DNA of 64,000 nucleotides from contig CASDTX010000046.1 of assembly GCA_949283695.1 (NCBI GenBank), positions 124,001 through 188,000 of the forward strand, read 5' to 3'. Within the stretch, counting starts at the first letter, position 1. The number at the start of each line of letters is the position of its first letter. Below the pieces are notes generated by a model. That model saw only the letters and a list, made by a program, of their open reading frames with translations, did no database searches and was not told where the DNA came from. Below, one piece after another: positions 46,963 to 62,293 of this stretch. The translations under genes were made by a program, and so were the position numbers. Origin of the DNA: an uncultured Eubacteriales bacterium. Its GTDB lineage: Bacteria > Bacillota > Clostridia > Lachnospirales > Lachnospiraceae.

Positions 46963-47646
46963 ATGAGCATTAAACCAATTGAGAAAGTAGCGGTAGGCGA
47001 GCAGGTATACGATCAGCTGAAGAAGCTTTTGCTGGAAGGGGAGTGGGCGCCCGGAAGTAAGATTCCGTCGGAAAATGAGCTGGCGGACATGTTTCATGTC
47101 AGCAGAGTGACTGTGCGCCAGGCACTGCAGAAATTAAATGCCCTGGGACTTCTGGAGACTCGTCTGGGAGAGGGCTCGTTTGTGAAGACACTGGATGCCG
47201 GCGAGAATATGAACGCGCTGATCCCCACGGTTTATCTTGGGGAACAGTCGATTATGCAGGTGATCGAATTCCGTCAGATTATCGAGACAGAGTGCGCGAG
47301 ACTGGCGGCCCGGAGAGCGTCAGACGAAGATGTGAAAGAGCTGGAGAGACTTTGGGACAATATGAAGAAATGGGAGACCGAGAAGAATATCAAAGAATTC
47401 AGCAAGGCAGATCTGGACTTTCATTTCGAGGTTGCCAAGATTACCGGGAATGGACTGATTATTAAGACGAACAGTATCCTGCGGGATGTGCTGGAATGTT
47501 CGATGGACAAAGTGATCGAGAAGATGGGGTATGAGAGCGGTCTGTATTATCACGGAGAAATATTGAAAGCAATCGCAGATCACGACGAAGAAAAAGCGGC
47601 ACAGATGATGAAGGAACATATCGGACGGAACAAGGACTTTTTCTGA
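46963..47646 (+). CDS. GntR family transcriptional regulator, FadR/FCD subfamily
   Basis: A 227-aa repressor. The N-terminal winged helix (about 10-75) has the GntR signature GSKIPSENELADMFHVSRVTVRQAL and LGLLETRLGEGSFVK. The C-terminal FCD domain (about 90-215) is helical with the ligand/metal residues expected in DLDFHFEVAKITGN and in YYHGEILKAIADHD. FCD regulators usually bind sugar acids or carboxylates, which fits the dehydratase and GarR-like genes it precedes. It likely represses itself and the long operon downstream. Confidence 0.93.
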   Translation: MSIKPIEKVAVGEQVYDQLKKLLLEGEWAPGSKIPSENELADMFHVSRVTVRQALQKLNALGLLETRLGEGSFVKTLDAGENMNALIPTVYLGEQSIMQVIEFRQIIETECARLAARRASDEDVKELERLWDNMKKWETEKNIKEFSKADLDFHFEVAKITGNGLIIKTNSILRDVLECSMDKVIEKMGYESGLYYHGEILKAIADHDEEKAAQMMKEHIGRNKDFF

Positions 47647-47713
47647 TGGTGTCAATAAACGGGTCCCGAATTTGGTAAAATTACATAAAAATCTGCTTTT
47701 AGAATACATGATG

Positions 47714-47742
47714 TTGACAAAAACAGCAGTGTATGCTATTTT
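47714..47742 (+). promoter_or_regulatory. Promoter of the sugar ABC and catabolic operon
   Basis: TTGACA (47714-47719), 17-bp spacer, TATTTT (47737-47742). The start codon of the binding protein is 62 bases downstream. Confidence 0.8.
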
Positions 47743-47776
47743 ATACTCATACCTGTAATACAAGCGACAGCATACA
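47730..47776 (+). promoter_or_regulatory. Second GntR operator overlapping the -10 box
   Basis: TGTATGCT (47730-47737) and AGCATACA (47769-47776) are exact copies of the ends of the gntR palindrome, here 31 bases apart; TGTATGCTATTTTA matches 12 of 14 bases of the operator half, and TAATACA at 47756 is a further partial half-site. The first half-site covers the -10 box. Confidence 0.7.
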
Positions 47777-47803
47777 ACACATAACATGCAGAAGGAGGAA
47801 CGT

Positions 47804-49108
47804 ATGAAGAAGAGAAACAGATTTTTAGGACTCATGTTGACAGGAGCGATGGTCGCCGGATGCCTTGCGGGATGTTCGGGCGGCGACAAGGATCAGACAA
47901 CAGACGAAAACAGGGGAACGATTGAAAACCCGGAAGAGATCACTGCAGAGCTGACCCTGTGGGATGCGAGCTGGAACGAAAACATCACTCCGGGGCTGAT
48001 CGAGAAATTCAATGAGCAGTACCCGGGAATCAAAGTGAATGTAGAATATTTCCCGAGCGACGGCATGTCAGACAAATATCTGACAGCTCTGACCAACGGC
48101 GGAAGCAGCGGCCCGGATCTGGTGAGCGTGAACAATGAATGGATTTCCACGTTTGTGGCCGGCGGCGGTTTGATGAACATGGACGACTACATTGAAGCCA
48201 ACGACTATGATATGTCCGATTTCTATGACGGAGCCCTGGATGGGATAACGATCAACGGTTCTGTCTACGCACTCCCCTACAGAGCGGAGACCCACGGATT
48301 GTTCTATAACGCGGATATGTTCCAGGAAGCAGGCTATGATGCTGTGCCGGAGACTTGGGAAGAGTTCCTTGGCGCTGCAGTGAAGATCACAGAGGACAGC
48401 GGCGGAGAAGTAAAGGGAATCGCAGTTCCCGGAGGCGAATGGGGCAACACGACGTATCAGCTGATCAACATGATTTTATGCGCTGACGGGGACATCCTGA
48501 ATGAGGACAACACAGAGTGTGTTCTGGATTCGGAAGAGGCAATCAAGGCGGCAGAGTATTTTGTGGATTTAAGTGTGGAGCATCAGGTAGTTCCAGACAG
48601 CATTTTGGAGAATGACAACGCAGCGGGACGTACCTTATTCGCAGAAGAGAAGGTGGCTTCGTTCATGACAGGAGCCTACGATATCGCCACAATTCAGGAT
48701 CTGAACCCGGACTTAAATATGGGTACAGCCATGGTTCCGGTGTTTGACGGTGCAGACAGACATATCATTTTCGCAGGATGGAGCACCGCGGTTTCCGCAC
48801 ACACGGAAGAACCGGACGCCGCATGGCTGCTGGCGGAGTTCCTTGCGCAGCCGGAGAACTCGGTGGAGTATTCTACGACATTCTCGGCGAGAAAATCTAT
48901 GGCTGACGATGAGAAATACACAGGAGATCCGCTGCTTTCAAGCCTGGCAGAATCTCTTCAGTATGGGGAGCCGCTGCCGGTTATCCCGGAGATCACACAG
49001 ATCCGGCAGACATTATACGAATACATCCAGCTTGCACTTTCCGGTGAGATGACTGCTGAGGAAGCGATGACACAGACTACAGAAGAAGTAAATGATCTGC
49101 TGCAGTAG
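47804..49108 (+). CDS. Sugar ABC transporter substrate-binding lipoprotein
   Basis: A 434-aa extracellular solute-binding protein of the carbohydrate (family 1, MalE/UgpB) type. A lipoprotein signal peptide ends in the lipobox LAGC, followed by a Gly/Ser/Asp-rich tether. Typical binding-protein sequences are LTLWDASWNENITPGLIEKFNEQYPGI and PYRAETHGLFYNADMFQEAG. It is the first gene of the operon, with AGAAGGAGG before the ATG at 47804. Ligand unknown; from the operon it is a glycoside or sugar acid derivative. Confidence 0.92.
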   Translation: MKKRNRFLGLMLTGAMVAGCLAGCSGGDKDQTTDENRGTIENPEEITAELTLWDASWNENITPGLIEKFNEQYPGIKVNVEYFPSDGMSDKYLTALTNGGSSGPDLVSVNNEWISTFVAGGGLMNMDDYIEANDYDMSDFYDGALDGITINGSVYALPYRAETHGLFYNADMFQEAGYDAVPETWEEFLGAAVKITEDSGGEVKGIAVPGGEWGNTTYQLINMILCADGDILNEDNTECVLDSEEAIKAAEYFVDLSVEHQVVPDSILENDNAAGRTLFAEEKVASFMTGAYDIATIQDLNPDLNMGTAMVPVFDGADRHIIFAGWSTAVSAHTEEPDAAWLLAEFLAQPENSVEYSTTFSARKSMADDEKYTGDPLLSSLAESLQYGEPLPVIPEITQIRQTLYEYIQLALSGEMTAEEAMTQTTEEVNDLLQ

Positions 49109-49131
49109 CCCTTTATAAACAGGTATGACTG

Positions 49132-49227: not shown

Positions 49228-50121
49228 ATGAAAGGAAGACGAAAACAACATACATTCAAAAACAGCGGAGCAATATTTATCCTGCCGGCATTTCTTGTGG
49301 TAGCCTTGGTGATGTTTTTCCCATTGCTGTATAATATTGCCTTAAGTTTTTTCGAGAAAACAATATACAACGCGGACTGGAAGTTCGTAGGAATCGAACA
49401 GTATATCGATCTTCTTACGTCCGGCAAATTCCTGAACGCGCTGAAAAATACGGTGGTATGGACATTCTTCAGTGTGGTGTTCCAGTTTGTGATCGGATTT
49501 CTTGTTGCACTCGTGCTGGCCCAGGAACGGGTGAAGCTGAGAGGAATCTGGAGATGCCTGATTATGCTTCCCTGGGTACTTCCTTCCATCATTGGAAGTA
49601 TGGTATGGAGGTGGATGTACCACTCAGATTTTGGAATTCTGAATGATATTCTGATGAAACTGGGGATCATCAATGAAGCGATTCCCTGGCTGGGAAGCAA
49701 GGAGTTCGCTTTGATATCAGCGATCATTGTGAATGTCTGGAAGATGTTCCCGCTGGTACTGCTGTACATAGAGGCAGCTCTGCAGTCTGTCCCCAAGAGT
49801 CTTCAGGACGCGGCAGTGGTGGACGGCGCCAATGCATTCCACTGTTTCCGGGTGGTGACATGGCCCCACATCGCTCCTACCTGCAAGACGGTGGTACTTC
49901 TGCTTTCTATCTGGACACTGAATGCATTTACCTTTATCTATGTCCTGACAGGAGGAGGACCGGGGACGTCATCCCAGGTACTGTCTCTGTTTATCTACCG
50001 GGAAGCATTCCAGAACTTCAATTATGGAAGCGCGGCGGCTGCAAGCACGATCCTGTTTATCATCGTCGCAGTGTTCAGCAGCATTTATATCAAACTGTCA
50101 ACAGGAGGTGAGGACCAGTGA
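49228..50121 (+). CDS. Sugar ABC transporter permease, MalF/UgpA type
   Basis: A 297-aa membrane protein with six transmembrane segments and the EAA loop DAAVVDGANAFHCFRVVTWPHIAP that contacts the ATPase. The ATG at 49228 (MKGRRKQHTFKNSG) has GGAGAAGG at a proper distance; the ATG 15 bases earlier does not. Its stop overlaps the GTG of the next permease. No ATPase gene lies in the cluster, so a shared MsiK/UgpC-type ATPase elsewhere is presumed. Confidence 0.93.
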   Translation: MKGRRKQHTFKNSGAIFILPAFLVVALVMFFPLLYNIALSFFEKTIYNADWKFVGIEQYIDLLTSGKFLNALKNTVVWTFFSVVFQFVIGFLVALVLAQERVKLRGIWRCLIMLPWVLPSIIGSMVWRWMYHSDFGILNDILMKLGIINEAIPWLGSKEFALISAIIVNVWKMFPLVLLYIEAALQSVPKSLQDAAVVDGANAFHCFRVVTWPHIAPTCKTVVLLLSIWTLNAFTFIYVLTGGGPGTSSQVLSLFIYREAFQNFNYGSAAAASTILFIIVAVFSSIYIKLSTGGEDQ

Positions 50122-50960
50122 TCAAGAACAGGCATACAGAGAAAATCAAAGTGGCGGCAACCCATCTGTTTCTGCTGGCTGTCGTAATCATTGCCATATT
50201 CCCGATCCTGTGGATGTTTGACTCTTCTCTGAAAGGGGAGTCTGAGATCTACTCCTCTTCGCCCACATTTTGGATCGAGAGCCCCACGTTCGAGAATTAT
50301 ATCCGGGTCATCTTTGACAGCGGGATCCCAAGAGCCTTTCTGAACAGTCTGATCATATCGGTTACAGCGACTTCCATCACAGTGGTTCTTGGCTGCCTCG
50401 CAGGCTATGGATTCTCGCGATACCGGTTCCGGGCAAGGAAAGCCTTATATGTGGGGCTGCTGTACGGCCAGATGATGCCCGCGGTGGTATTGATTATTCC
50501 GATCTATCTTGTATTTACGAAGATCGGGCTGATGGATTCCTATTTTTCCCTGATTCTGCCGGATGTGGCGATCACGGTTCCGCTGGCGACACTGATGCTG
50601 AAGAGCTTCTTCGACGGCGTATCCGTGGAGCTGGAGGATGCGGCCAGGATCGACGGGGCCAGCAAGCTGGGGATCCTGTGCAGAATCATCGTGCCCATCG
50701 CCAAGCCGGGACTGGTTTCCGTGGCGATCTACACATTCCTGACCACATGGGAAGAGTTCCTGTTTGCACTGAACCTGACGAATTCAGCGTCGATCCGGAC
50801 ACTGCCGATCGCGATCAATATGTTCAAGGGTGAGTTCGTCATTGACTGGGGCGCGATTATGGCGTCAGGCGCGGTGATTTCCCTGCCGGTAATCCTGCTG
50901 TTTGTACTGTGCAATAAGGTATTTGTGAAGGGATTATCAGAAGGCGGAGTGAAAGGATAG
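50118..50960 (+). CDS. Sugar ABC transporter permease, MalG/UgpE type
   Basis: A 280-aa partner permease with six membrane segments and the EAA loop ELEDAARIDGASKLGILCRIIVP region. It starts with GTG four bases before the end of the preceding gene, behind AGGAGGTGAGG, which indicates coupled translation. Together with the preceding permease it forms the channel for the lipoprotein-delivered ligand. Confidence 0.93.
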   Translation: MIKNRHTEKIKVAATHLFLLAVVIIAIFPILWMFDSSLKGESEIYSSSPTFWIESPTFENYIRVIFDSGIPRAFLNSLIISVTATSITVVLGCLAGYGFSRYRFRARKALYVGLLYGQMMPAVVLIIPIYLVFTKIGLMDSYFSLILPDVAITVPLATLMLKSFFDGVSVELEDAARIDGASKLGILCRIIVPIAKPGLVSVAIYTFLTTWEEFLFALNLTNSASIRTLPIAINMFKGEFVIDWGAIMASGAVISLPVILLFVLCNKVFVKGLSEGGVKG

Positions 50961-50993
50961 AAAGAAAATATAAGATCAAGGAGGATGAAGAAG

Positions 50994-51422
50994 ATGATAG
51001 TGAAAGGACTGGCACACACAGCGTTAAATGTTTCAGACATGGAGAAATCGATCCGGTTTTACTGTGATGTTCTGGGATTTGAGAAGGCGTTCGAGATGGA
51101 GAACCCGGAGACAAAGGAACCATGGATTGTATACCTCTATGCAGGCGGAGGACAGTTCATCGAGCTCTTCTACGGAGGGGTGAATTATACGGAGTACAGC
51201 AATGATAATATCGGATTTTCCCACCTGTGCTTTGAAGTCTCGGATATCCAGGCGATCGCGGATCAGATCACGGGGGCAGGCTGTGAGCTGGACCGCCCGG
51301 TCAAGTTCGGGATCGACAGCAACTGGCAGTGCTGGGTAAGAGATCCGGACCGCAACCGGATCGAACTGATGCAGGTCGGGGAAGAGTCCCCCCAGGCCAG
51401 ATTCCTCAAAGAGAGAAAGTAG
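50994..51422 (+). CDS. VOC family protein 1 (complete metal site)
   Basis: A 142-aa vicinal oxygen chelate fold protein of the glyoxalase/methylmalonyl-CoA epimerase type. Four candidate metal ligands can be aligned: His8 (AHTALNV), Glu in FIELFYGG, His in FSHLCFEV and Glu in NRIELMQV. Members isomerise or cleave substrates through an enediolate. AGGAGG is directly against the ATG at 50985 but nine bases from the ATG at 50994, which is therefore chosen. First of three VOC genes in the operon. Confidence 0.85.
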   Translation: MIVKGLAHTALNVSDMEKSIRFYCDVLGFEKAFEMENPETKEPWIVYLYAGGGQFIELFYGGVNYTEYSNDNIGFSHLCFEVSDIQAIADQITGAGCELDRPVKFGIDSNWQCWVRDPDRNRIELMQVGEESPQARFLKERK

Positions 51423-51430: not shown

Positions 51431-51907
51431 ATGTGCGAGAATAAGCTGTCCAGCAGCTTCGTGGTGAAGATCGGAATCGTGGTCAACGATATTGAGCAGA
51501 CCGCGGAGCGCTATAACCGGCTGTTCGCTCTGGGGAAAGAAGCGGCCGTGCGGTACCCGGATCCGAACAAGAAGCCGGCAGAAGGAGCCTATAAGAGATA
51601 CCACGGCGAGGAAGTTCATCCCAAGCTGAAATCCTGTATCGTGGATCTCAGCCCGGTCTACCTGGAGATCCTGGAACCGGCGGACGAAGAGAAAAGCCCG
51701 TGGAGAACCTACCTGGAAACATACGGACCGGGTGTGTGCTTCCTCTCTTTTTACATCGACGGATTCGAGCAGCATATTGATCTGATGGAGAAGGGCGGAT
51801 ATCCGATGAGCTTTGTCGAAGAGAAGATGTTCGAAAGATATGCCTACTTTGACACCCAGGAACAACTTGGCGTGACCATAGAATTAAAGGAACGAAAGAG
51901 CAGATAA
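51431..51907 (+). CDS. VOC family protein 2 (metal ligands lost)
   Basis: A 158-aa VOC-fold protein starting MCENKLSSSFVVKIGIVV, eight bases after VOC 1. Compared with its two siblings, the first histidine is Lys13 (VVKIGIVV) and the second histidine is replaced in CFLSFYIDG, while the glutamates in YLEILEPA and VTIELKE remain. It is thus unlikely to bind metal in the usual way and may be a structural partner of VOC 1 or 3 or a binding protein. The open frame extends upstream within VOC 1 without a start signal. Confidence 0.8.
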   Translation: MCENKLSSSFVVKIGIVVNDIEQTAERYNRLFALGKEAAVRYPDPNKKPAEGAYKRYHGEEVHPKLKSCIVDLSPVYLEILEPADEEKSPWRTYLETYGPGVCFLSFYIDGFEQHIDLMEKGGYPMSFVEEKMFERYAYFDTQEQLGVTIELKERKSR

Positions 51908-51931: not shown

Positions 51932-52633
51932 TTGAATATCATCATCACAGGCGCCGGCGGGGGACTGGGGTGCTATCTCGCATCAGCGGCGCTGAACAGA
52001 GGGCATAAAGTGTATGCGGCAGTCCACTCATCCAAAAGGATTTCCCCTATGATGGTTGAACTGAAGAAGGCGTACGGGGACAGACTGTCTGTGCTGGAAA
52101 TGGATGTCTCGAAAGCTGACAGCATACGGAAAGCGGCACACCGGATGGAGCAGAAGGGCGTCGTGCTCGACGGGATTATCAACAATGCAGCGATTATGAC
52201 CGAGCGGGAGAAAACCATCGAAGATCTGAACATCGACGAAGTGCTGCGGTCCTTTGAAGTCAATACGGTCGGGCCGATGCGCGTGGTCCAGGAACTGCTG
52301 CCCCTGCTGTATCAGGGGGAGCGGCAGTCCATCATTAACATTTCTTCCGAGGCGGGGACCATCATCAATGCATTCCCCACCAACTATGCCTACAGTATGT
52401 CGAAGGCCGCGTTAAATATGTTCTCAGAACGTCTGCGGGAGTTCCTCCGGGAGAAGGAGATTCAGGTGTATGCGGTGCACCCGGGATGGATGCGCACGAA
52501 CATGGGTGGGACGGACGCACCGGCTGACCCGGCAGACATCGCTGCCGGCATACTGGATATTATGGAGCGGAAGAAGATCATCTATTCCAAGATCGCGTTC
52601 ATTGATGCGACCGGGCGGCCTATGCCCTTATAG
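51932..52633 (+). CDS. Short-chain dehydrogenase/reductase 1
   Basis: A 233-aa SDR. The dinucleotide motif is TGAGGGLG near the N-terminus, with NNAA in the middle and the catalytic YxxxK as YSMSK. A TTG codon at 51932 is the start, with GAGAGGAAGG upstream. It oxidises or reduces an alcohol on a still unknown substrate. Placed between VOC 2 and VOC 3, so it probably handles the same intermediate. Confidence 0.87.
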   Translation: MNIIITGAGGGLGCYLASAALNRGHKVYAAVHSSKRISPMMVELKKAYGDRLSVLEMDVSKADSIRKAAHRMEQKGVVLDGIINNAAIMTEREKTIEDLNIDEVLRSFEVNTVGPMRVVQELLPLLYQGERQSIINISSEAGTIINAFPTNYAYSMSKAALNMFSERLREFLREKEIQVYAVHPGWMRTNMGGTDAPADPADIAAGILDIMERKKIIYSKIAFIDATGRPMPL

Positions 52634-52643: not shown

Positions 52644-53096
52644 ATGGAAACAGAGAAATGGCAGCAGGATCAGATCGTGCATCTTGCGCTTGTTGTAAAG
52701 GACATTGAGAAAACACTTGCTGATTACTGCAGGATCTTCCGGATGGAGATGCCGCAGATCAAACAGACCTGTCCGGAGGAAATCGCAGAGACCGAATACC
52801 GGGGCAGACCGACTCCGGCCCGCGCGAAACAGGCGTTCCTTTCTTTCGGCAGTATGCGCATTGAGCTGATGGAGCCGGATGCACATGACAGTACATGGAA
52901 GGAGTATCTGGAGCAGCACGGGAACTGCGTTCACCATATCGCATTGTACGTGCCGGATATGGACCGGGCGCTGGAAGAGCTGGAAGGCGAGGAGATCTCC
53001 CTTGTCCAGAGGGGGAAATACCGGGGCGGGAAGTATGCCTATGTGGCCAGTGAGGAGAAACTGGCGGTCATGCTGGAACTTCTGCAGGACGACTGA
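52644..53096 (+). CDS. VOC family protein 3 (complete metal site)
   Basis: A 150-aa VOC-fold protein with the His/Glu/His/Glu set visible: His13 (VHLALVVKDIE), Glu in MRIELMEPD, His in CVHHIALYV, and Glu in VMLELLQ. It resembles VOC 1 and VOC 2 in length and position of motifs but is not a recent duplicate by sequence. AGGAGGA lies before the ATG at 52644. It is followed 18 bases later by the Gfo/Idh/MocA gene. Confidence 0.85.
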   Translation: METEKWQQDQIVHLALVVKDIEKTLADYCRIFRMEMPQIKQTCPEEIAETEYRGRPTPARAKQAFLSFGSMRIELMEPDAHDSTWKEYLEQHGNCVHHIALYVPDMDRALEELEGEEISLVQRGKYRGGKYAYVASEEKLAVMLELLQDD

Positions 53097-53114: not shown

Positions 53115-54284
53115 ATGGAGAAGACACGAATCGGCATCATCGGCTGCGGGGTGATTTCCGAGGTTTATCTGAACAATATCCGGCGATTTTACGGCAGGAT
53201 CCGGGTGGTGTCCTGCGCGGACCGCATCCGGGAGAAAGCGGAAGCGCTGGCTGCCAGCTATGACATCGGCAAGGTGTGCACCGTGGAAGAGCTTCTTGCG
53301 GATCCGCAGATTGACATTGTGCTCAATCTGACGATTCCGCAGGCGCATTACGAGATCAATCAGAAGGCAGTCACAGCCGGGAAGCACGTATACTGTGAGA
53401 AGCCGCTGGCCCTTACCGTCAGGGAGGCAGAGGAACTGCGGCGCCTGGCGAAAGAGAAGGGAGTGCGGATCGGCTGCGCGCCGGATACCTTCCTGGGCGC
53501 GGGCCTGCAGACCTGCAGGCGGCTGATCGATGAGGGATGGATCGGGAAACCGGTGGGCGCGACCGCCAATATGATGAACCACGGCACAGAGACCTGGCAC
53601 CGCTCTCCGGACTTCTATTATCAGCCGGGAGGCGGGCCGCTGTTCGACATGGGGCCGTATTATATCACTGCACTGGTCTCTCTTCTGGGACCGGTGGAGA
53701 AGGCGGGATGCTTCTCCACAAAGGGATTTGAGCAGCGGAGAATATACAGTATGCCAAGGAGGGGGGAATCGATCCGCGTAGAAGTGCCGACACATTACGC
53801 GGGGATCCTTCGCTTCCGGAGCGGGGCAGTGGCGAACATCAATCTGAGCTTTGACGCCTGGCTGTCCAACCTTCCGAAGCTGGAGATCTACGGCACAGAA
53901 GGCACGATCGTCGTTCCGGATCCGAACCGCTTCGACGGCGAGGTGAAGCTCATCCGAAGGGAGGCACTTCTGGATGCGGTGGAAGCGGCGCCGGGCGATG
54001 AAGCCGCAGGACTGCTGAGCAGGCCGGAGATGTGGGAGAAGTACAGAGTGATGCCCTCCCTGTACCGGCAGCCGGACGGGAATATGCGGGGGATCGGGCT
54101 TCTGGACATGATCTGTGCAATCGAGAATCAGCGGCCTGCCCGGGCGGGAGCGGAACTGGCCGGACATGTCCTGGAAGTGATGGAGTGTCTGAGCCGGGAG
54201 GATGCGGTCTCGGCGGTTGCATCTTCGTGCGAGAGACCCGCGCCCATGCCTGCAGGGCTGGAGATCGGCGAACTGGATGAATGA
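53115..54284 (+). CDS. Gfo/Idh/MocA family oxidoreductase
   Basis: A 389-aa NAD(P)-dependent sugar dehydrogenase. N-terminal Rossmann motif GIIGCGVISEVY; the family signature CEKPLAL at about 97-103; the C-terminal alpha/beta domain with GGGPLFDMGPYYITALVSLLG. In several gut bacteria members of this family oxidise C3 of a glucoside so that the bond to the aglycone can be eliminated; here that is only an inference. A run of 18-bp tandem repeats begins at its stop codon. Confidence 0.9.
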   Translation: MEKTRIGIIGCGVISEVYLNNIRRFYGRIRVVSCADRIREKAEALAASYDIGKVCTVEELLADPQIDIVLNLTIPQAHYEINQKAVTAGKHVYCEKPLALTVREAEELRRLAKEKGVRIGCAPDTFLGAGLQTCRRLIDEGWIGKPVGATANMMNHGTETWHRSPDFYYQPGGGPLFDMGPYYITALVSLLGPVEKAGCFSTKGFEQRRIYSMPRRGESIRVEVPTHYAGILRFRSGAVANINLSFDAWLSNLPKLEIYGTEGTIVVPDPNRFDGEVKLIRREALLDAVEAAPGDEAAGLLSRPEMWEKYRVMPSLYRQPDGNMRGIGLLDMICAIENQRPARAGAELAGHVLEVMECLSREDAVSAVASSCERPAPMPAGLEIGELDE

Positions 54285-54392: not shown

Positions 54393-55775
54393 GTGGAAGT
54401 ATCAGGAGCAGCAGAGAAACAGGTAAATACAGGTTCCGCCCCGTCCCGGCTCAGGATTACAGATCTGAAGATCTGCAAGGTACATATTCCGCCCTGGGGA
54501 AGCCATCTCATCCGGATTGAGACCAATCAGGGACTGACCGGATATGGGGAGCTGCGGGACGGAGCCAGCGCGACGTATGTGAAGATGCTCAAAAGCAGGA
54601 TCCTGGGGGAAAACCCCTGTGACATTGAGCGGCTGCTGAAGAAGATCCGGCAGTTCGGCGGGATGGCCCGCCAGGCGGCAGGAGTCTCCGCCGTGGAAAT
54701 CGCTCTGTGGGATCTGTGCGGGAAGGCTTACCAGATCCCGGTCTATCAGCTGCTGGGCGGGAAGCAGAGAGCGCAGATCCGGCTGTACGCAGACGCGCAC
54801 ATTGAGAGCGGCAGGTTTACCGGTGAGGTGCGTGAGCCCGAGGAAGTGGGCAGAACCCTGCTGGAATCTATGAGTCAGGACTTCTCCGTGCTGAAGCTTC
54901 TGAGTGTGGAGCTTCTGATGTATCAGGAGGGGAATGTCTCGGGGGCCACGGACTGGCTGAGAAACTACAGAAAGATACAAGACGGACTCAAAGAAGCCGG
55001 AACGAAGGACCTGAAGACGCGGACACAGCTGAATGCGGCTCTGTATAATTATAATAATCTGGCACATCCGTTTACGAATCTGCATGTTACGGAACAGGGA
55101 CTGGACTGTCTGGAATCTTACATCGAAAGGATCCGGGCAGTCACAGGATATGAGGTGCCTCTGGCAATTGATCATTTCGGGCATTTCCCCATGATTGACA
55201 TGATAAAAATCGGACGGAGACTGGAGAAGTTTAACCTGGCCTGGGCCGAGGATATGCTGCCCTGGTACCTGACAGAGCAGTACGCGCATCTGGCCCGGCG
55301 TACGGAGATCCCGCTGGCAGTGGGAGAGGATATTTATCTGGCGGAGAACTTCGAACCGCTGCTTCAGACCGGCGCGCTGTCACTGGTCCACCCGGATCTG
55401 CTGACCGTGGGCGGGATCCTGGAGGTGAAAAAGCTGAGCGCGCTGGCAGAGAAATACGGTGCATCCATGGCGATCCATATGTGCGAGAGCCCGGTTGCGG
55501 CACTGGCAGCGGCACATGCCGCGGCGGTGAGCGATGTGTTCTTTGCCCTGGAGTACGATGCGCTGGATATGCCCTGGTGGGAGGATCTGATTGACAGTCC
55601 CTATTCGCCTATTGGAGCGGGCGGACAGATCACCCTTCTGGATGAGCCGGGGCTGGGCATACGCGGGCTGAACGAGGAGGTGCTGAGGGAACATGCAGAG
55701 GTCACAGACGGAGAGATCTGGATGTCCACAGACGAGTGGAACCAGGAATCCTCACTGGACCGGATCTGGAGCTGA
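54393..55775 (+). CDS. Enolase-superfamily dehydratase (mandelate racemase/muconate lactonizing type)
   Basis: A 460-aa MR/MLE protein, probably a sugar-acid dehydratase. The three metal ligands are Asp260 (AIDHFGHF), Glu286 (WAEDMLPW) and Glu312 (VGEDIY); a histidine in AIHMCESP is the likely base. The usual K-x-K motif on the second strand reads VLKLLSVE, with only the first lysine. The N-terminal capping domain has GYGELRDGASATYV. GTG start with a poor binding site (AAGGAT). An insertion around residues 185-225 is longer than in common family members. Substrate not assignable from sequence. Confidence 0.87.
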   Translation: MEVSGAAEKQVNTGSAPSRLRITDLKICKVHIPPWGSHLIRIETNQGLTGYGELRDGASATYVKMLKSRILGENPCDIERLLKKIRQFGGMARQAAGVSAVEIALWDLCGKAYQIPVYQLLGGKQRAQIRLYADAHIESGRFTGEVREPEEVGRTLLESMSQDFSVLKLLSVELLMYQEGNVSGATDWLRNYRKIQDGLKEAGTKDLKTRTQLNAALYNYNNLAHPFTNLHVTEQGLDCLESYIERIRAVTGYEVPLAIDHFGHFPMIDMIKIGRRLEKFNLAWAEDMLPWYLTEQYAHLARRTEIPLAVGEDIYLAENFEPLLQTGALSLVHPDLLTVGGILEVKKLSALAEKYGASMAIHMCESPVAALAAAHAAAVSDVFFALEYDALDMPWWEDLIDSPYSPIGAGGQITLLDEPGLGIRGLNEEVLREHAEVTDGEIWMSTDEWNQESSLDRIWS

Positions 55776-55834: not shown

Positions 55835-56659
55835 ATGGAATATAGCAAGGACTTGATCAGACAGCTGGAAGAGAAGGCGAGAACGCTGAGAAAGGATGTT
55901 GTGATCAGCATGGGAGTAGGCGTCGCCGGACACATCGGGGGATCGAATTCGTCCGCGGACATTGTGGCGGCACTGTATTTTTATAAGATGCATTATGACA
56001 GCCAGAATCCCCAGATGGAGGACCGGGACCGGTTCCTGCTGAGCAAAGGTCACGTGGCCATTCTTCAGTACGCGGCACTGGCAGAGGCGGGATATTTCCC
56101 GGTGGAAGATCTGAAAAAAACAAAGGAGATCGGATCCTATCTGCAGGGCCACCCGGATGTGCGCAAGACGCCGGGGATCGAGGCCGGGACCGGATCGCTG
56201 GGACAGGGATTGTCGATCGGGCTGGGGATGGCTCTCGGCATGAGAAGCAATGGGATCCGGCGGAAGGTATATGTACTGGTCGGAGACGGTGAGACCCAGG
56301 AGGGACAGGTCTGGGAGGCAGCTATGGCGGCCGGCATGTATAAGGCGGACAACCTGGTGGCCATTGTGGACCAGAACGGCCTGCAGGCCAACGGAAAGGT
56401 GGAGAACCGCATGAATACAGCCCCGCTCACCCTGAAGTGGAAGAGTTTCGGCTGGAACGTGATCGAGATCGACGGTCATAATATGGAAGAGATTCTCACT
56501 GCGCTTGACCAGGCAGACGGAATCAAAGGGATGCCCACGGTCATCATTGCACACACTGTCAAGGGCAAAGGCGTAAGCTTCGCGGAGAATGTTGTAGGTT
56601 ACCACAACGGAGCGCTGACACAAGAGACGTATCAGCAGGCATTACAGGAATTGTCATAA
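55835..56659 (+). CDS. Transketolase, N-terminal subunit
   Basis: A 274-aa protein that is the thiamine-pyrophosphate-binding half of a split transketolase. Signatures: GHIGGSNSSADIVAALYF, SKGHVAILQYA, GTGSLGQGLSIGLGMALG and the TPP motif GDGETQEGQVWEAA...DQNGLQ. With the next gene it would move two-carbon units between sugar phosphates, or use hydroxypyruvate as donor. GGAGG precedes the ATG at 55835. Split transketolases are common in clostridia, so the separation is natural. Confidence 0.93.
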   Translation: MEYSKDLIRQLEEKARTLRKDVVISMGVGVAGHIGGSNSSADIVAALYFYKMHYDSQNPQMEDRDRFLLSKGHVAILQYAALAEAGYFPVEDLKKTKEIGSYLQGHPDVRKTPGIEAGTGSLGQGLSIGLGMALGMRSNGIRRKVYVLVGDGETQEGQVWEAAMAAGMYKADNLVAIVDQNGLQANGKVENRMNTAPLTLKWKSFGWNVIEIDGHNMEEILTALDQADGIKGMPTVIIAHTVKGKGVSFAENVVGYHNGALTQETYQQALQELS

Positions 56660-56672: not shown

Positions 56673-57599
56673 ATGGGATATACGAATCAGAGAATCGCCT
56701 ACGGGCGCACACTGGTAGAGCTTGGAAGGACGAATCCGGATATTGTGGTGCTGGACGCGGACCTGGGCGGCTCAACCATGGGGAAAATGTTCGAGCAGGA
56801 GTACCCGGACAGGCATTTTGAGATGGGGATCGCGGAGGCAAATATGACCTCCGTCGCGGCAGGGCTTGCCCAGGCGGGGAAGATCCCGTTCACGAATTCG
56901 TTTGCCGTTTTCGCGGGCGGGCGCGCCTATGACCAGATCAGACAGACGATCGCCATCGGCAGACTCAATGTAAAGATCTGCGGGTCTTCTGCGGGGCTGT
57001 CTGATTTCGGAGACGGGGCCACGCATCAGTCGGTGGAAGATCTCGCGCTCATGCGGGCCATCCCCAATATGACGGTCCTCTGCCCGGCTGACGCCAATGA
57101 GACGGTGGGCGCTGTGAAGGCCATGGTGGAAATGGACGGACCCTGTTACATCAGACTGAACCGGAATGACTATGAAAATGTGACAGAGGAAGGCCAGGAA
57201 TTCCGCATTGGGGAACCCAAAGTCCTGAGAGAGGGAGAGGAGATCGTTCTCTTTGCCACCGGATATATGGTGGGACTCTCTCTTGCGGCGGCAGAAGAAC
57301 TGGCGGGGAAAATCTCTGTAAAAGTGGTGAATGTCAGCACCATCAAGCCGCTGAATGAGAACCGAATCGCAGAGCTGGCCAGGGGATGTAAAGCGGCTGT
57401 AACAGCGGAGGAGCACAGCATCATCGGAGGCCTTGGAAGCGCGGTGTCAGAAGCCCTGCGCAAGGAGAGGATCGCCGTGGAATTCGTAGGGATTAACGAT
57501 ACGTTCGGGTGCAGCGCCCACAATTATCAGGATGTATTGAACGCGCACGGCCTGACCACGGAGCATATCGTAAAGGCAGTCGAGAAGATGAACAGATAG
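56673..57599 (+). CDS. Transketolase, C-terminal subunit
   Basis: A 308-aa protein with the pyrimidine-binding domain (DADLGGSTMGKMFEQEYPDR..EMGIAEANM with the catalytic Glu) and the C-terminal swivel domain. It begins 13 bases after the N-terminal subunit behind AAGGAGGAGG. Both halves are needed for activity. Its presence in the operon implies that the pathway passes through a ketose or hydroxypyruvate. Confidence 0.93.
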   Translation: MGYTNQRIAYGRTLVELGRTNPDIVVLDADLGGSTMGKMFEQEYPDRHFEMGIAEANMTSVAAGLAQAGKIPFTNSFAVFAGGRAYDQIRQTIAIGRLNVKICGSSAGLSDFGDGATHQSVEDLALMRAIPNMTVLCPADANETVGAVKAMVEMDGPCYIRLNRNDYENVTEEGQEFRIGEPKVLREGEEIVLFATGYMVGLSLAAAEELAGKISVKVVNVSTIKPLNENRIAELARGCKAAVTAEEHSIIGGLGSAVSEALRKERIAVEFVGINDTFGCSAHNYQDVLNAHGLTTEHIVKAVEKMNR

Positions 57600-57618: not shown

Positions 57619-58518
57619 ATGAAAATCGGTTTTATCGGTCTTGGAATCATGGGCAGGCCCATGGTGCTCAACCTGATGAAGGCAGGGTATGAGGTGGCAG
57701 TATACGACATTGTGAAAGAGAATGTAGAACAGATGGCAGCGAGAGGGGCGGAGGCGAAGTGCTCCGCAAAAGAAGCCTCCCAGGACTGTGAAGTGATCAT
57801 TACCATGCTGCCGAACTCCCCCCACGTGAAAGCTGCGGTGCTTGGAGAAGACGGAGTTCTGGAAGGAGCCAGGCCGGGACGTATCCTGATTGATATGAGC
57901 TCCATCGCTCCGGCTGCGTCCAGGGAGATCTGGGAAGCCTGCGCGAAGAAGCAGGTTCAGATGATTGACGCGCCGGTGTCAGGGGGAGAGCCGAAGGCTA
58001 TTGACGGAACCATGTCCATTATGGCAGGAGGGGACAAGGCAGTATTTGACAAGGTATATGACATCCTCATGTCCATGGGCGGCAGTGCGGTTTACTGCGG
58101 GGAGATCGGAGCGGGCAATACGACGAAGCTGGCCAACCAGGTCATTGTGGCGCTGAACATTGCCGCTGTATCCGAGGCGTTCATGCTGAGCAAGAAGGCA
58201 GGCGTGGATCCGCAGAAGGTATTTGAGGCTATCCGGGGCGGTCTGGCAGGGTCCACGGTGATGAACGCGAAAGTTCCCATGATTCTGGCAGGAAACGATA
58301 AGCCGGGCTTCAAGATCGATCTCCATATCAAAGACCTGGCTAACGCTCTGGAGACCGGGCATGAGACTGGAGCACCGCTGCCTATGACGGCGGGGGTGAT
58401 GGAGATCCTGCAGAATCTCCGCGCAGACGGCTATGGACAGAGCGACCACAGCGCGATCTGCAAATACTATGAGAAACTGGCCGGCACAACGATCGGAACG
58501 GAAGAGGAGGGGATGTAG
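57619..58518 (+). CDS. garR: 2-hydroxy-3-oxopropionate (tartronate semialdehyde) reductase
   Basis: A 299-aa beta-hydroxyacid dehydrogenase. N-terminal NAD(P) motif GFIGLGIMGRPM; substrate loop DAPVSGGEPKAIDGT; catalytic Lys170 in GAGNTTKLANQ. Extended segments (ITMLPNSPHVK, LIDMSSIAP, IRGGLAGSTVM, IDLHIKDLANAL) are close to Escherichia coli GarR, so reduction of tartronate semialdehyde to D-glycerate is the best guess. The aldolase that usually supplies the semialdehyde (GarL) is absent, so another source, such as a hydroxypyruvate isomerase, is needed. Confidence 0.85.
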   Translation: MKIGFIGLGIMGRPMVLNLMKAGYEVAVYDIVKENVEQMAARGAEAKCSAKEASQDCEVIITMLPNSPHVKAAVLGEDGVLEGARPGRILIDMSSIAPAASREIWEACAKKQVQMIDAPVSGGEPKAIDGTMSIMAGGDKAVFDKVYDILMSMGGSAVYCGEIGAGNTTKLANQVIVALNIAAVSEAFMLSKKAGVDPQKVFEAIRGGLAGSTVMNAKVPMILAGNDKPGFKIDLHIKDLANALETGHETGAPLPMTAGVMEILQNLRADGYGQSDHSAICKYYEKLAGTTIGTEEEGM

Positions 58519-58519: not shown

Positions 58520-59326
58520 ATGGAACTGTCGCCGCTGGAAAAACGCTTTTCCCTGCAGGGGAAGACGGTGGTCTTCACCGGGGCAGCGGGAGGCATCGGA
58601 AGTGCGATCGCAGAAGGGCTGGCTGAGGCAGGCGCTTCGGTGGCGCTCTGCGATATCAGTACCGGGCAGCTGGAACAAGTGAGAGACCGGATCATCGGTG
58701 CAGGCGGAACCGCGTCCTGCCACCGCCTGGACGTGACGGACAAGGAGATGATTTCGGAGTGTATGCGCCAGATCCACGGGCAGTACGGGTCCCTGGACGT
58801 GCTGGTCAACTGCGCGGGAATCAATAAGAGAGAAGGATTTGCGGATGTGGCAGAGGAAACCTATGACAAGATCATGGATGTAAACTTAAAGGGTGTGTTT
58901 CTTGTGTCACAGGCAGCCGCGCCTTATATGAAGGAGCAGAGAAGCGGCAGCATTATCAATATCGGCTCTCATAATACGGGCAGTATTCTGGGAGGCTGCG
59001 CGGTGTACGGGGCAACGAAGTGCGGCGTTCTGTCACTGACGCGTTCGATGGCCGTGGAATGGGCGAAATATAATATCCGTGCCAACTGTGTCAGCCCGGG
59101 ACATATCCAGACCCCGCTGACCACGGTTACCTGGGAGCATCCCCAGCGGTCGAAATACCTGCTGGACCGGATCGCGCTGAACCGTCCGGGGTACCCGGAA
59201 GATATTGTAGGGGTCTGCATTCTTCTGGCGTCGGACGCGTCCGCCTATATTACGGGAACAGAGATCCGGGTGGACGGGGGATGTATCGCGGGCGGACAGC
59301 CCTGGCCCTATGACACTGCATTTTAG
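58520..59326 (+). CDS. Short-chain dehydrogenase/reductase 2
   Basis: A 268-aa classical SDR similar to gluconate 5-dehydrogenase and 2-deoxygluconate dehydrogenase (KduD) enzymes. Cofactor motif TGAAGGIG, NCAG, catalytic Ser region NIGSHNTGS, YGATK, and C-terminal TGTEIRVDGG. The ATG at 58520 begins one base after the garR stop with GGAGG upstream. Likely acts on a keto-sugar acid in this pathway. Confidence 0.9.
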   Translation: MELSPLEKRFSLQGKTVVFTGAAGGIGSAIAEGLAEAGASVALCDISTGQLEQVRDRIIGAGGTASCHRLDVTDKEMISECMRQIHGQYGSLDVLVNCAGINKREGFADVAEETYDKIMDVNLKGVFLVSQAAAPYMKEQRSGSIINIGSHNTGSILGGCAVYGATKCGVLSLTRSMAVEWAKYNIRANCVSPGHIQTPLTTVTWEHPQRSKYLLDRIALNRPGYPEDIVGVCILLASDASAYITGTEIRVDGGCIAGGQPWPYDTAF

Positions 59327-59337
59327 AAGGAGCGCAT

Positions 59338-60174
59338 ATGAGACTGGGTATATCGACGGATTTGAATTGTAAGAGCCCGCAGGAGTGGGCGGAGAGCATC
59401 CGCAGCCTTGGGTGCGGCGCTGTTGTATTTCCGGTGGATTACACCGCGGATGAGAAGACTGTATGGGCGTATGCCGACGCGGCAGAAGCCTGGGGGCTGG
59501 TGATCGCGGAGACTGGCTGCTGGTGCAATCCCATCTCCCCTGATCCTAAGGAACGGGAACAGGCTCTGGAACGGTGCCGGGAGCAGCTGCGGCTGGCGGA
59601 CGCGGTAGGAGCCAGGTGCTGCGTCAACGTGGCCGGGGCCGCGGGAGCGAAATGGTCCGGAGCATACAAAGGGAATTTCAGCGAAGAGACATGGGATCTG
59701 ACGGTGCGGACGATCCAGGACATCATTGACGCAGTGCGTCCGCAGCACACCTGTTTCACCATTGAGCCCATGCCCTATATGGTTCCCTTGGATCCGGATC
59801 AGTATGTGCGGCTCATGGAGGAGGTGGACAGAGACCGGTTCGCAGTGCATATGGATTTCTGCAACTGGCTGAATACGCCAGAGAAGTATTATTTCCACGA
59901 GGCCTTTCTGGAAGAATGCTTTGCAAAGCTGGGGCTGTACATCAAGAGCTGCCACCTGAAGGATGTGCAGCTGACCCATGAGCTGACCTGTCATCTGAAG
60001 GAAGTGCCCTGCGGACAGGGCGAGATCAATCTGGAGAACTACATCCGGCTGGCTGAACAGTATGATCCGGAGATGCCGATGATCACGGAACATCTGAAGT
60101 CTGATCAGGCCTATCTGGACAGTGTCCGCTATCTGAAACAGCGGCTGCAGCCGGCGGGAATCAGGTTCTTTTAA
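59338..60174 (+). CDS. Sugar phosphate isomerase/epimerase (xylose isomerase-like barrel)
   Basis: A 278-aa TIM-barrel protein of the AP-endonuclease-2/xylose isomerase-like superfamily. The four metal residues typical of D-tagatose 3-epimerase and hydroxypyruvate isomerase are apparent: Glu in FTIEPMPY, Asp in VHMDFCNW, His in KSCHLKD, Glu in MITEHLKS. It could be a hydroxypyruvate isomerase feeding the GarR-like enzyme, a ketose epimerase, or a 3-keto-glycoside lyase. AAGGAG precedes the ATG. Confidence 0.85.
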   Translation: MRLGISTDLNCKSPQEWAESIRSLGCGAVVFPVDYTADEKTVWAYADAAEAWGLVIAETGCWCNPISPDPKEREQALERCREQLRLADAVGARCCVNVAGAAGAKWSGAYKGNFSEETWDLTVRTIQDIIDAVRPQHTCFTIEPMPYMVPLDPDQYVRLMEEVDRDRFAVHMDFCNWLNTPEKYYFHEAFLEECFAKLGLYIKSCHLKDVQLTHELTCHLKEVPCGQGEINLENYIRLAEQYDPEMPMITEHLKSDQAYLDSVRYLKQRLQPAGIRFF

Positions 60175-60187
60175 ATGAGGAGAGAAG

Positions 60188-62293
60188 ATGGAGTTTGAGA
60201 AGAAGGCAAGAGAACTGGCAGAGCGCATGTCAGTCGAAGAAAAAGCGTGGATGCTGCGGTTTGATTCACCGCCCATCGAGCGGCTGGGGATCCCCAGGTA
60301 CCACTGGTGGAACGAAGGTCTTCACGGGGTTGCCAGAGCCGGGACGGCGACCATGTTTCCCCAGGCCATTGCCATGGCCGCCATGTTCGATGAAGCAGAG
60401 ATGAAGAAGATCGGGGACGTGATCTCCACGGAAGCAAGAGGAAAATACAATGCCTGCTGTGCGGAAAACGACCGGGATATCTATAAGGGACTGACCCTGT
60501 GGTCGCCCAATATCAATATCTTCCGGGATCCCAGGTGGGGCCGGGGCCACGAGACTTATGGGGAGGATCCCTATCTCACGGCCAGACTGGCAGTGAACTT
60601 CATCCGGGGGATCCAGGGCGATGGGCCCTATCTGAAGGCAGCGGCCTGCGCGAAGCATTTCTGCTGCTACAGCGGCCCTGAGGAGCTGCGCCATGAGTTT
60701 GACGCGGAAGTGTCGCCCAAGGACCTGTGGGAAACCTATCTTCCTGCCTTCGAGGCCTGCGTGAAAGAAGCCGGCGTGGAAGGCGTAATGGGAGCCTATA
60801 ACCGGGTCAACGGCGAGCCTTGCTGCGGGAGCAAGACACTGATCCAGAAGATCCTGCGGGAGAAATGGGGATTTGACGGGTACTTTACCTCGGACTGCTG
60901 GGCGCTGAAGGACTTCCATGAGAATCATGGGGTCACGTCCACCGCGGAAGAGTCAGCGGCCCTGGCGCTGAAGGCAGGATGCGACATCAACTGCGGGAAC
61001 ATCTATCTGCGGATCCTTCAAGCCTGTCAGGACGGACTGGTCACCGAAGAAGAGATCACAGAAGCCGCGGTTCGCGTGCTCCGCACCCGGCTGCGCCTGG
61101 GGATGCTGGACGAAGACTGCGAATACCAATCCATTTCCTACGAAGAAGTGGCCAGCCCGGAACACCGAAGAGAAGCGGTTCTGGCGGCGGAGAAGTCTGT
61201 GGTCCTGCTGAAGAACGACGGCATACTGCCGCTGTCGCCGGATCTGGAGAAGCTGGCAGTGATCGGCCCCAACGCAGACAGCCGCTGGCCTCTGATCGCC
61301 AACTATCACGGCACTGCGCCCGGGTATATTACAGTCCTGGACGGCATCCGGCGGACAGCCGGAGAGGAGATGCGGATTTATTACTCAGAGGGCTGCCACA
61401 CGGTAAAGGACCGGGTGGAAAAGCTTGCCCTGCCTGACGACCGGATCTCGGAGGCTGTCACGGCGGCCCGGATCGCAGGGACAGCGGTGGTGTGCGTGGG
61501 CCTGGACGAGCGCTATGAGGGAGAGCAGCAGGATATCGGAAACCGGTTTGACGAGAAGGGCAGCACAGCAGATAAAAGCGATATCAAACTGCCGGCGGTC
61601 CAGATCCGGCTGCTGGAACGGCTTATAGAGACAGGGGCAGATCTCATTGTGGTCAATATGACGGGAAGTGCGGTGGACTTAGGCTGGCTCCATGAAACAG
61701 AAACTGTAAGGGCCATTGTGCAGGGCTGGTATCCCGGCGCGGAAGGCGGGCTGGCCATTGCCCGCGTCCTGTTCGGCAGGGTGAATCCTTCCGGACGGCT
61801 GCCGATTACGTTTTACCGGGATGTAGAAGATCTGCCGGCCTTCACAGATTATTCGATGCAGAACCGGACTTACCGCTATCTGCGGTCCGAGCCCGTATAT
61901 CCCTTCGGCTATGGGCTGAGCTATACAGAGTACACGTACTCGGATCTGCAGGCAGCCGGTGCGGATGGGGCGTGGAGAGTCAGCGTCTCTGTGACCAATA
62001 CGGGCCTGCGTCCCGGCGAAGAAGTGGTTCAGGTATATCTGAAGGATCTGGAATCACCTCATGCAGTGCCCAACTGGAGTCTGTGCGGATTCCGGAGGGT
62101 CAGCCTGCAGCCCCGGGAGACGAAACGGGTAGAGATCGTTCTGGACGAGAGGGCCTTTGAGATCGTAGATGATGAGGGAAACCGGCGGATCGATTCGCGG
62201 ACGTTCCTGATCTATGCAGGAGGAAGTCAGCCGGATGAAAGGAGCAGTGTGCTCACCGGGAAGACCCCGCTGTGCAAGAAGATCGTTCGATAA
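60188..62293 (+). CDS. Glycoside hydrolase family 3, beta-glucosidase/beta-xylosidase type
   Basis: A 701-aa cytosolic GH3 with all three parts: N-terminal barrel (nucleophile Asp in FDGYFTSDCWALKDF), C-terminal alpha/beta sandwich, and a fibronectin III-like domain (about 590-680, RPGEEVVQVYLKD). Segments such as YHWWNEGLHGVA and VMGAYNRVNGEPCCGS place it with beta-xylosidases and beta-glucosidases. It has no signal peptide, so it cleaves the imported glycoside inside the cell. It ends the operon and is followed by a bidirectional terminator. Confidence 0.93.
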   Translation: MEFEKKARELAERMSVEEKAWMLRFDSPPIERLGIPRYHWWNEGLHGVARAGTATMFPQAIAMAAMFDEAEMKKIGDVISTEARGKYNACCAENDRDIYKGLTLWSPNINIFRDPRWGRGHETYGEDPYLTARLAVNFIRGIQGDGPYLKAAACAKHFCCYSGPEELRHEFDAEVSPKDLWETYLPAFEACVKEAGVEGVMGAYNRVNGEPCCGSKTLIQKILREKWGFDGYFTSDCWALKDFHENHGVTSTAEESAALALKAGCDINCGNIYLRILQACQDGLVTEEEITEAAVRVLRTRLRLGMLDEDCEYQSISYEEVASPEHRREAVLAAEKSVVLLKNDGILPLSPDLEKLAVIGPNADSRWPLIANYHGTAPGYITVLDGIRRTAGEEMRIYYSEGCHTVKDRVEKLALPDDRISEAVTAARIAGTAVVCVGLDERYEGEQQDIGNRFDEKGSTADKSDIKLPAVQIRLLERLIETGADLIVVNMTGSAVDLGWLHETETVRAIVQGWYPGAEGGLAIARVLFGRVNPSGRLPITFYRDVEDLPAFTDYSMQNRTYRYLRSEPVYPFGYGLSYTEYTYSDLQAAGADGAWRVSVSVTNTGLRPGEEVVQVYLKDLESPHAVPNWSLCGFRRVSLQPRETKRVEIVLDERAFEIVDDEGNRRIDSRTFLIYAGGSQPDERSSVLTGKTPLCKKIVR

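Follow-up and report, generated by a model that had tools for sequence, protein, structure and literature searches.

Layout of the operon and its control region

The window analyzed here, a 64-kb stretch of DNA from an uncultured Lachnospiraceae bacterium (G000:C46:124001-188000, from an assembly that is 79% complete), carries a 16-gene operon that joins a split transketolase to a sugar importer, VOC proteins, dehydrogenases, and a glycosidase. The best-grounded result of our analysis, which we regard as firm, is that this transketolase belongs to a clade with an altered phosphate pocket. The operon lies at 46963-62293 on the + strand, as do all window features located below, and consists of one GntR/FCD gene and 15 co-directional genes. 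With the chosen starts, the intergenic gaps are 157, 119, -4, 24, 8, 24, 10, 18, 108, 59, 13, 19, 1, 11, and 13 bases, 11 of the 15 being under 30, so that the co-directional, mostly tightly spaced operon described in a first-pass annotation of this DNA is confirmed; the family names given there to the 16 genes agree with curated models and Pfam.

The regulator gene (46963-47646) has relatives beside the same type of transketolase in other loci, at 63% (L128), 54% (L129 and L130), 52% (L132), and 46% (L136) identity. It is followed by the sugar-binding protein (47804-49108; recognized by binding-protein models below their cut-offs, 39% identical in L015) and the two permeases (49228-50121 and 50118-50960; family models, 52% and 50% identical in L015) of an ATP-binding cassette (ABC) importer; as had been noted at first pass, the 16 genes include no ATPase. 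Then come VOC1 (50985-51422; PF00903; 80-81% identical in genome G015), VOC2 (51431-51907; PF13669; 56% in G015), SDR1 with a TTG start (51932-52633; PF00106; 64-66% in G015), VOC3 (52644-53096; PF13669; nearest solved structure 3gm5, with a 36% relative beside an MR/MLE gene in L015), a Gfo/Idh/MocA oxidoreductase, hereafter Gfo (53115-54284; family models; 58% in G015 and 36% in L015), and an MR/MLE protein of the enolase superfamily, a putative sugar-acid dehydratase by family models and invariant residues (54393-55775). The transketolase is encoded as an N-terminal half (TKN, 55835-56659; NF004559, 308.5 bits; nearest solved structure the split transketolase 6yak) and a C-terminal half (TKC, 56673-57599), in which alignments reveal a His-to-Ser change at residue 106 within an RSFSR motif. 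The last four genes encode GarR, a tartronate semialdehyde reductase by family (57619-58518; above the cut-offs of NF008592 and TIGR01505), SDR2, a putative aldonate dehydrogenase (58520-59326; second nearest solved structure the gluconate 5-dehydrogenase 1vl8; 78% identical in L128 and 68% in L126), an AP_endonuc_2 TIM-barrel isomerase/epimerase-like protein (59338-60174; PF01261; no solved relative by sequence), and a GH3 glycosidase (60188-62293; nearest model xylosidase Xyl3A, below its cut-off at 754.8 against 1250 bits; 56% in G015).

The operon is flanked upstream by a carB-like gene and downstream by an oppositely directed glutamate 5-kinase-like gene, both named by eye. At its upstream edge, after the carB-like gene, is a terminator-like hairpin (46594-46631) with a 16-pair stem and then a T run; terminator-like sites occur in the region at a chance-level count, and the case for this hairpin is the strength of its single stem. 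An inverted repeat after GH3 (62302-62342; 20-nt arms, 90% complementary) is a possible terminator that was not among the sites called by the terminator-like scan. Ahead of gntR is a promoter-like site, TTGACA-17-AATAAT (46870-46898), which matches 11 of 12 consensus positions and is weak alone, promoter-like sites in the region being near chance (14 against a mean of 10.9). Between this site and gntR lies a palindrome with perfect 16-nt arms, TGTAATACAGCATACA-AGC-TGTATGCTGTATTACA (46909-46943), a predicted operator. Its parts TGTATGCT, TGTAATACA, and AGCATACA recur as half-sites, TGTAATACA at 47754, with a second promoter-like site upstream of the importer genes (47714-47776). The pattern TGTAWTACA occurs only three times in the window, at 46909, 46935, and 47754, and by this prediction gntR and the importer genes have an operator in common.

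A split transketolase clade with a changed phosphate site

Both halves match transketolase models, from which two-carbon ketol transfer is predicted. Phosphate-using transketolases bind phosphate through an Arg-Ser-His-Arg set of ligands, three of which are kept in the window protein: in an alignment of TKC with 6yaj and human transketolase, Arg7, Ser34, and Arg164 are retained, whereas Ser106 stands where the other two have His (RSFHR to RSFSR). All 10 close relatives in the family share the change together with an invariant GSS[AS]G-SDFGDGATHQ segment. Across the class, 18 of 371 sampled genomes (G000 among them) match at E 1e-95, and each of the 19 other places, from 17 genomes, again has Ser for His, L171 lacking coverage of the first Arg. 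These 10 family loci and 19 class places make up the 29 relatives of the RSFSR type discussed below.

As controls we took 24 places with weaker transketolase homologues (33-51% identity), one of which, L205, lies at a contig end with one flank short. His is kept in 19 of them; the residue is Asp in L203, Gly in L204 and L207, and Ser in L208, and L202 is uncovered at this column. Although the four columns of L208 are R-S-S-R, the segment around them differs and the identity is 36%, and L208 was counted as a control. A tree of 64 rows places the 29 full-length sequences with Ser (the window, 10 from the family, and 18 from the class) on one side of a branch with a Shimodaira-Hasegawa-like approximate likelihood ratio (SH-aLRT) support of 98, the human and other long rows being loosely attached; since the motif columns were kept, the tree is not independent of the motif. 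The rows left out were L142 (the window itself), L144 (DXS-like), the partial L171 and L202, and a duplicate copy of L143.

A few observations on individual transketolase loci may be recorded here. Elsewhere in the window's genome, at L143 (G000:C58), stands another split transketolase, which has the usual His motif and is adjoined by a gene distantly related to GntR (24%). The C-halves of L062 (19530-21313) and L203 have Asp at the His position (R-C-D-R and R-A-D-R), group together, and come close to the RAFDR motif of the sulfo-transketolase (sulfo-TK) pathway. In G013, TKN is broken by one stop codon (L134, 9858-10634), with TKC and GarR open, and G571 has three RSFSR-type loci (L213, L215, and L217) with differing neighbor sets, GarR adjoining only one.

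Genes linked to the transketolase

The window GarR passes the cut-offs of two NCBIfam tartronate semialdehyde reductase models (474.6 against 397 bits, and 409.1 against 340.75) and stays below those for sulfolactaldehyde reductase (217.3 of 348) and threonate dehydrogenase (200 of 350). A GarR gene, 59-77% identical to that of the window, directly adjoins the transketolase in 24 of the 29 relatives (9/10 in the family and 15/19 in the class), and none was found within about 1.5 kb in the 24 control loci. A dehydrogenase is near in seven of the 10 family loci, SDR2-like in L126, L128, L130, L131, L133, and L135 and Zn-dependent in L129 and L135. Class neighborhoods were seen in views of 6-18 kb around the 19 places, 15 of which include an SDR2-like or Zn-dependent dehydrogenase (nine at 49% identity or higher, the rest at 29-37%); GntR relatives occur in 14 of these views, GntP in two, and TRAP genes in five.

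Individual loci add to this set. L129 combines GntR, a TIM barrel, a Zn dehydrogenase, GntP, GarR, TKC, TKN, and glycerate kinase; its Zn dehydrogenase comes nearest to the models for IolM, threonine, and L-idonate 5-dehydrogenase but stays under each cut-off. L219 has a glycerate kinase relative (39%) with two TIM barrels, so that in L129 and L219 glycerate kinase lies inside the transketolase cluster. TRAP genes occur together with SDR2 in L130, a GH29-like gene (named by eye; no NCBIfam match at 1e-25) with the 78% identical SDR2 in L128, and GH43 in L133. Of the 11 genomes with an RSFSR transketolase, 10 yielded a glycerate kinase (PF02595), the G214 copy being in two pieces with a stop, and G277 (82% complete) yielded none; it is also present in G149 and in five of 14 control genomes, and its mere presence in a genome says little.

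The candidate operator also recurs. TGTAWTACA has 21 sites in the 29 relative loci, spread over 16 of them, where 6.3 are expected from base composition and 50 first-order Markov resamplings gave a mean of 3.8 and a maximum of 8; 13 of the 21 are near the start of a module gene. L128 copies the window's layout, with one site before gntR and another before the binding-protein gene, and L126 has no TGTAWTACA and a response-regulator gene in the place of gntR.

More distant bacteria were approached through a plasmid survey, in which 50 records matched, 20 were listed, and nine were examined. Plasmids of Azospirillum and Skermanella (L155, L159, and L160) have SDR, TKN, TKC, TRAP, and GarR-like (32-33%) genes in one run, and those of Klebsiella and Pantoea (L154 and L161) have TKN, TKC, a GarR-like gene (28-29%), and a major facilitator superfamily transporter. 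The five plasmid C-halves read T/P/S-Y-L-R at the phosphate columns and form a separate clade with Rhizobium L158, and three His-type records (Fusobacterium, Enterococcus, and Collinsella) have no GarR nearby. Because the proteobacterial plasmid rows form another clade, as read off a quick tree, the combination of a changed phosphate site with a GarR-like gene appears to have more than one origin.

A mosaic operon and its accessory parts

The operon looks like a mosaic. G015 (L126) has a run of GH3 (56%), VOC1 (81%), VOC2 (56%), SDR1 (64%), Gfo (58%), TKN (76%), TKC (75%), GarR (71%), and SDR2 (68%), without VOC3, MR/MLE, or the TIM barrel, and G149 (L015) has a run of importer, MR/MLE (63%), a VOC3 relative (36%), GH1, and Gfo (36%); the window operon combines a G015-type set and a G149-type set with the TIM barrel. 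That nine of its genes form one run in G015 too is more than chance, and the gene set is not random. The first-pass annotation had staked its reading on synteny between the VOC/SDR part and the transketolase/GarR part, and this linkage is present in G015, in that one genome only. On contig C35 of G015 the nine-gene set stands twice (L126 and L127), inverted, about 47 kb apart, and with identical scores, by duplication or as an assembly effect; the second copy, L127, was not counted.

The window-type TKC was found in none of the 16 congeneric genomes searched (75-100% complete), the best congener match being 51% identical, and on this ground the operon was probably acquired. Across a sample of 397 genomes of the family (G000 included in each count), and at the thresholds used, MR/MLE occurs in 8, SDR1 in 10 (only G015 at 66%), VOC1 in 7 (E 1e-30), and TKN in 11.

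In MR/MLE, K168, D260, E286, E312, D335, and H362 are invariant in all eight aligned sequences, the window included; with the roles usual in the enolase superfamily (Lys, three acidic metal ligands, and a His-Asp pair), the set is complete. The protein stays below the cut-offs of the named dehydratases, the best of 11 models being galactonate dehydratase (162 of 311 bits). When its best 80 loci were mapped against the 16 window proteins, none had a close window-type transketolase; L062, from a metagenome-assembled genome of the Spirochaetaceae, has distant halves (39% and 32%), and as it alone among the 80 has split transketolase genes, MR/MLE was rejected as an anchor to the same pathway elsewhere. 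From the other side, MR/MLE relatives are confined to a 29% fragment in L136 among the other nine family transketolase loci and to L213, at 27%, among the 19 class views. The route through MR/MLE that had been proposed at first pass is not borne out as an obligatory one, given that G015 and nearly all family and class loci lack the gene. MR/MLE keeps other company. Six family relatives (L016-L021, 46-50% identity) have SDR2-like genes in five cases, and SDR genes accompany MR/MLE in 30 of the best 80 loci. In L016 a gene that is RraA-like by Pfam adjoins MR/MLE, the corresponding gene in L017-L020 is probably RraA-like to judge by its NCBIfam matches, and L017 and L021 have a lactonase-like gene below its cut-off.

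VOC1 and VOC3 have a complete His-Glu-His-Glu metal site in alignments read by eye, whereas VOC2 has lost both His ligands, with Lys and Phe instead, as has the VOC2 of G015; the ligand positions are those usual for the family. The conserved pairing of an active VOC1 with a metal-less VOC2 suggests a hetero-oligomer or a non-metal role. The predicted fold of VOC2 (predicted local distance difference test score, pLDDT, 82.2) has 3gm5, a putative methylmalonyl-CoA epimerase, as its nearest relative, which places it only among methylmalonyl-CoA-epimerase-like folds. VOC genes of these kinds run with GH1 or GH3 in all four places where we see them (the window, L015, L126, and L141), with importer genes in the same run in the window, L015, and L141 and some kilobases off in L126, and they probably act on a glycoside or aglycone ahead of the transketolase part. 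L141 (G015:C118, 2704-12365) is itself a single run of GH1, two SDR1-like genes, a sugar ABC importer, two VOC3-like genes, and a pyruvate-formate-lyase-like gene. VOC1 was also tried as an anchor for the pathway and dropped, its five relatives outside G000 and G015 giving no clue.

The window TIM barrel is not close to those of other transketolase operons (best match to L129, L130, or L132 at E 0.01 or worse), and its single-sequence model has a mean pLDDT of 51.5. Mutually related TIM-barrel genes occur in L129, L130, L135, L219, and L223, with another kind in L132 and L210; the best model for that of L130 is psicose 3-epimerase, at 93.5 of 300 bits.

Discussion

Our best explanation of the operon, which we hold with evenly balanced confidence, is that it would import a small glycoside or sugar-acid conjugate, trim it with GH3, and send the sugar acid into a kinase-free transketolase route. 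SDR2 would oxidize a pentonate at C4 (or a hexonate at C5), leaving a keto group beside the terminal CH2OH, and the transketolase would shift the two-carbon ketol at the end of the chain onto an aldose phosphate to give a ketose phosphate, just as it takes that unit from xylulose phosphate. In the pentonate route, tartronate semialdehyde would be left for GarR to reduce to glycerate, which a glycerate kinase elsewhere in the genome could feed into glycolysis; a hexonate route would leave tartaric semialdehyde. Setting the carbon beside the ketone could fall to TIM barrels like the one in L130. On stereochemical grounds a canonical donor would derive from D-arabinonate or L-xylonate, although we make no claim for either. 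C-glycosides, agar (anhydrogalactose), apiose, and ascorbate glycosides were also considered as substrates and are set aside here, no search aimed at their marker genes having been made. More weakly suggested are a role for Gfo, SDR1, and VOC1/VOC2 in turning the glycone or aglycone into an acid by oxidation and metal-assisted enolization, and one for MR/MLE and VOC3 as a second, accessory module that may dehydrate another sugar acid. The wider comparison of loci favors the routing through transketolase to glycerate that the first-pass annotation had put forward, and that earlier interpretation survives in this step and in the linkage of the two operon parts; its obligatory MR/MLE step is not supported, and its redox-assisted glycoside cleavage seems rather improbable.

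Tentatively, and with slightly less than even confidence, we propose that these genes reflect a natural sugar-acid route found across the window's class, probably Clostridia, and made up of an aldonate dehydrogenase, the RSFSR transketolase, GarR, and glycerate kinase, which would yield pentose phosphate and glycerate from a keto-aldonate with no sugar kinase involved. It would be a carboxylate counterpart of sulfo-TK, fused here to a VOC1/VOC2-SDR1-Gfo module, with the metal site of VOC2 lost, that would prepare the glycoside-borne acid. A search of the open-licence literature turned up no account of such a pathway in nature.

Several known systems come close. In the sulfo-TK pathway of sulfoquinovose (SqwGH, SqwF, and SqwI), a split transketolase acts in two rounds, separated by an isomerase step and followed by a reductase (PMC11659671). 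The likeness extends to the acidic ketose, the changed phosphate site, the reductase for an acidic aldehyde, and an importer and regulator in the cluster, and the split pair by which sulfo-TK is recognized is present in the window; however, the motif described for sulfo-TK is RAFDR (PMC11659671), whereas the window has R-S-F-S-R. The window also has a GarR-type reductase, a dehydrogenase in place of the sulfosugar isomerase, and GH3 in place of a sulfoquinovosidase. Because the RAFDR motif fails, we class the window system as transketolase-based acid-sugar catabolism and not as sulfo-TK. A second parallel is an engineered E. coli transketolase, TKTA_M (R358I/H461S/R520Q), which is reported to have 55.3% more activity on 5-ketogluconate (PMC12016104), and which shares with the window enzyme a His-to-Ser change at the same phosphate-site position and would share a keto-aldonate donor. 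The two Arg that TKTA_M changes are kept in the window enzyme, which is natural and split. By our alignment, H461S appears to fall at the position of Ser106.

The Carboxydothermus split transketolase (6yaj/6yak) has the same two-chain layout and is the nearest solved sequence to both halves, but keeps its phosphate-site His. Apulose-4-phosphate transketolase AptAB, of apiose use, is also split and serves a rare-sugar pathway that needs a sugar kinase, unlike the window operon, which has no sugar kinase gene. Known GarR enzymes belong to the same curated family, but here the substrate would come from a transketolase and not from an aldolase or carboligase. The MR/MLE-SDR clusters L016-L021 pair MR/MLE with an SDR2-like gene in five of six cases, as in the window, but lack relatives of the window's transketolase, VOC, and Gfo proteins.

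A number of observations weigh against the route that we favor. GarR is not adjacent in L132 of the family or in L175, L178, L184, and L185 of the class; L132, L134, and L136 have neither an SDR2-like nor a Zn-dependent dehydrogenase at the locus; and Rhizobium L158 has a changed phosphate site (Q-P-I-R), yet neither GarR nor SDR2 has a relative near it. Models for the dehydrogenases lack specificity, the window SDR2 passing a single one of the 25 listed, that of a generic glucose 1-dehydrogenase, and the carbon number rests on the GarR family and two glycerate kinase neighbors; indeed, the substrate, its carbon number, and the VOC roles are matters that we only infer. With both Arg residues and the Ser still in place at the phosphate site, phosphorylated substrates would be compatible with it. 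No conserved role for MR/MLE emerges in the transketolase route, and the five VOC1 relatives outside G000 and G015 (46-54%) lie in unrelated contexts, among GGDEF, EAL, acyltransferase, HAD, beta-lactamase-fold, HD, and phospholipase-D genes. As for regulation, eight of the 21 operator sites in relatives are away from any module gene start, and the TGTAWTACA pattern was itself defined on the window.

The alternative that survives best, though we think it unlikely, is a hexonate copy of sulfo-TK, where a 5-keto-hexonate would lose C2 to give a C4 semialdehyde acid, the TIM-barrel isomerase would shift the carbonyl, and a second transketolase turn would leave glyoxylate, which GarR would reduce to glycolate. 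The double use of a split transketolase in sulfo-TK, with isomerase between and reductase last, is a precedent (PMC11659671), an engineered transketolase turning 5-ketogluconate into tartaric semialdehyde has been reported (PMC12016104), and TIM-barrel genes recur in RSFSR loci (L129, L130, L135, L219, and L223, with the other kind in L132 and L210). However, GarR passes the tartronate semialdehyde cut-off, two clusters hold a glycerate kinase that would be needless for a glycolate product, and the window TIM barrel is not close to the others.

Redox-assisted glycoside cleavage, where Gfo would oxidize C3 of the glycoside, a VOC protein or the TIM barrel would eliminate the aglycone, and the sugar would be re-reduced, leaving the transketolase merely to handle the released sugar acid or pentose, strikes us as rather improbable. 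Gfo, the TIM barrel, and GH3 do stand together in the operon, and the solved proteins nearest to Gfo include 1,5-anhydrofructose reductase (best) and DgpA (eighth). Yet Gfo scores far under the cut-offs for glycoside and disaccharide 3-dehydrogenases (33.7 of 750 and 36.4 of 650 bits), no TIM-barrel gene stands beside the Gfo relative in the G015 version (one genome), and GH3 alone can already cleave glycosides.

We consider quite improbable the linear order of the first-pass annotation, by which MR/MLE would give a 2-keto-3-deoxy acid, SDR2 would oxidize it, the transketolase would cleave the diketo acid, and GarR would reduce the C4 fragment. The neighborhoods of MR/MLE with SDR (five of the six loci L016-L021, and 30 of the best 80), beside an RraA-like gene (L016 by Pfam, L017-L020 presumably), make dehydration followed by oxidation a recurring gene pairing, in which a transketolase could replace RraA, but G015, L128, L130, and almost all of the class views have the transketolase-GarR-SDR2 set and no MR/MLE, and GarR suits tartronate semialdehyde and not a C4 diketo acid. 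That an ordinary pentose-phosphate transketolase without special substrate was caught by chance in a mosaic sugar operon would agree with the retention of three phosphate-site residues, two Arg and one Ser, but is highly improbable, given the clade-wide His-to-Ser change and GSS-G-SDFGDG segment, the GarR neighbor that 24 of the 29 relatives have and none of the 24 controls has, and the separate His-type split transketolase in the same genome (L143).

The RSFSR motif and the GarR-transketolase gene pair provide an annotation rule for a split transketolase clade, and the claim can be tested with purified enzymes. If the proposed route is true, it would bear on the meaning of genes modeled only as "transketolase" or "2-hydroxy-3-oxopropionate reductase," and it would offer natural enzymes for the production of tartronate or tartaric semialdehyde. 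It would also represent a new, carbon-conserving branch of sugar-acid catabolism in anaerobes, which would take two carbons straight into the pentose phosphates.

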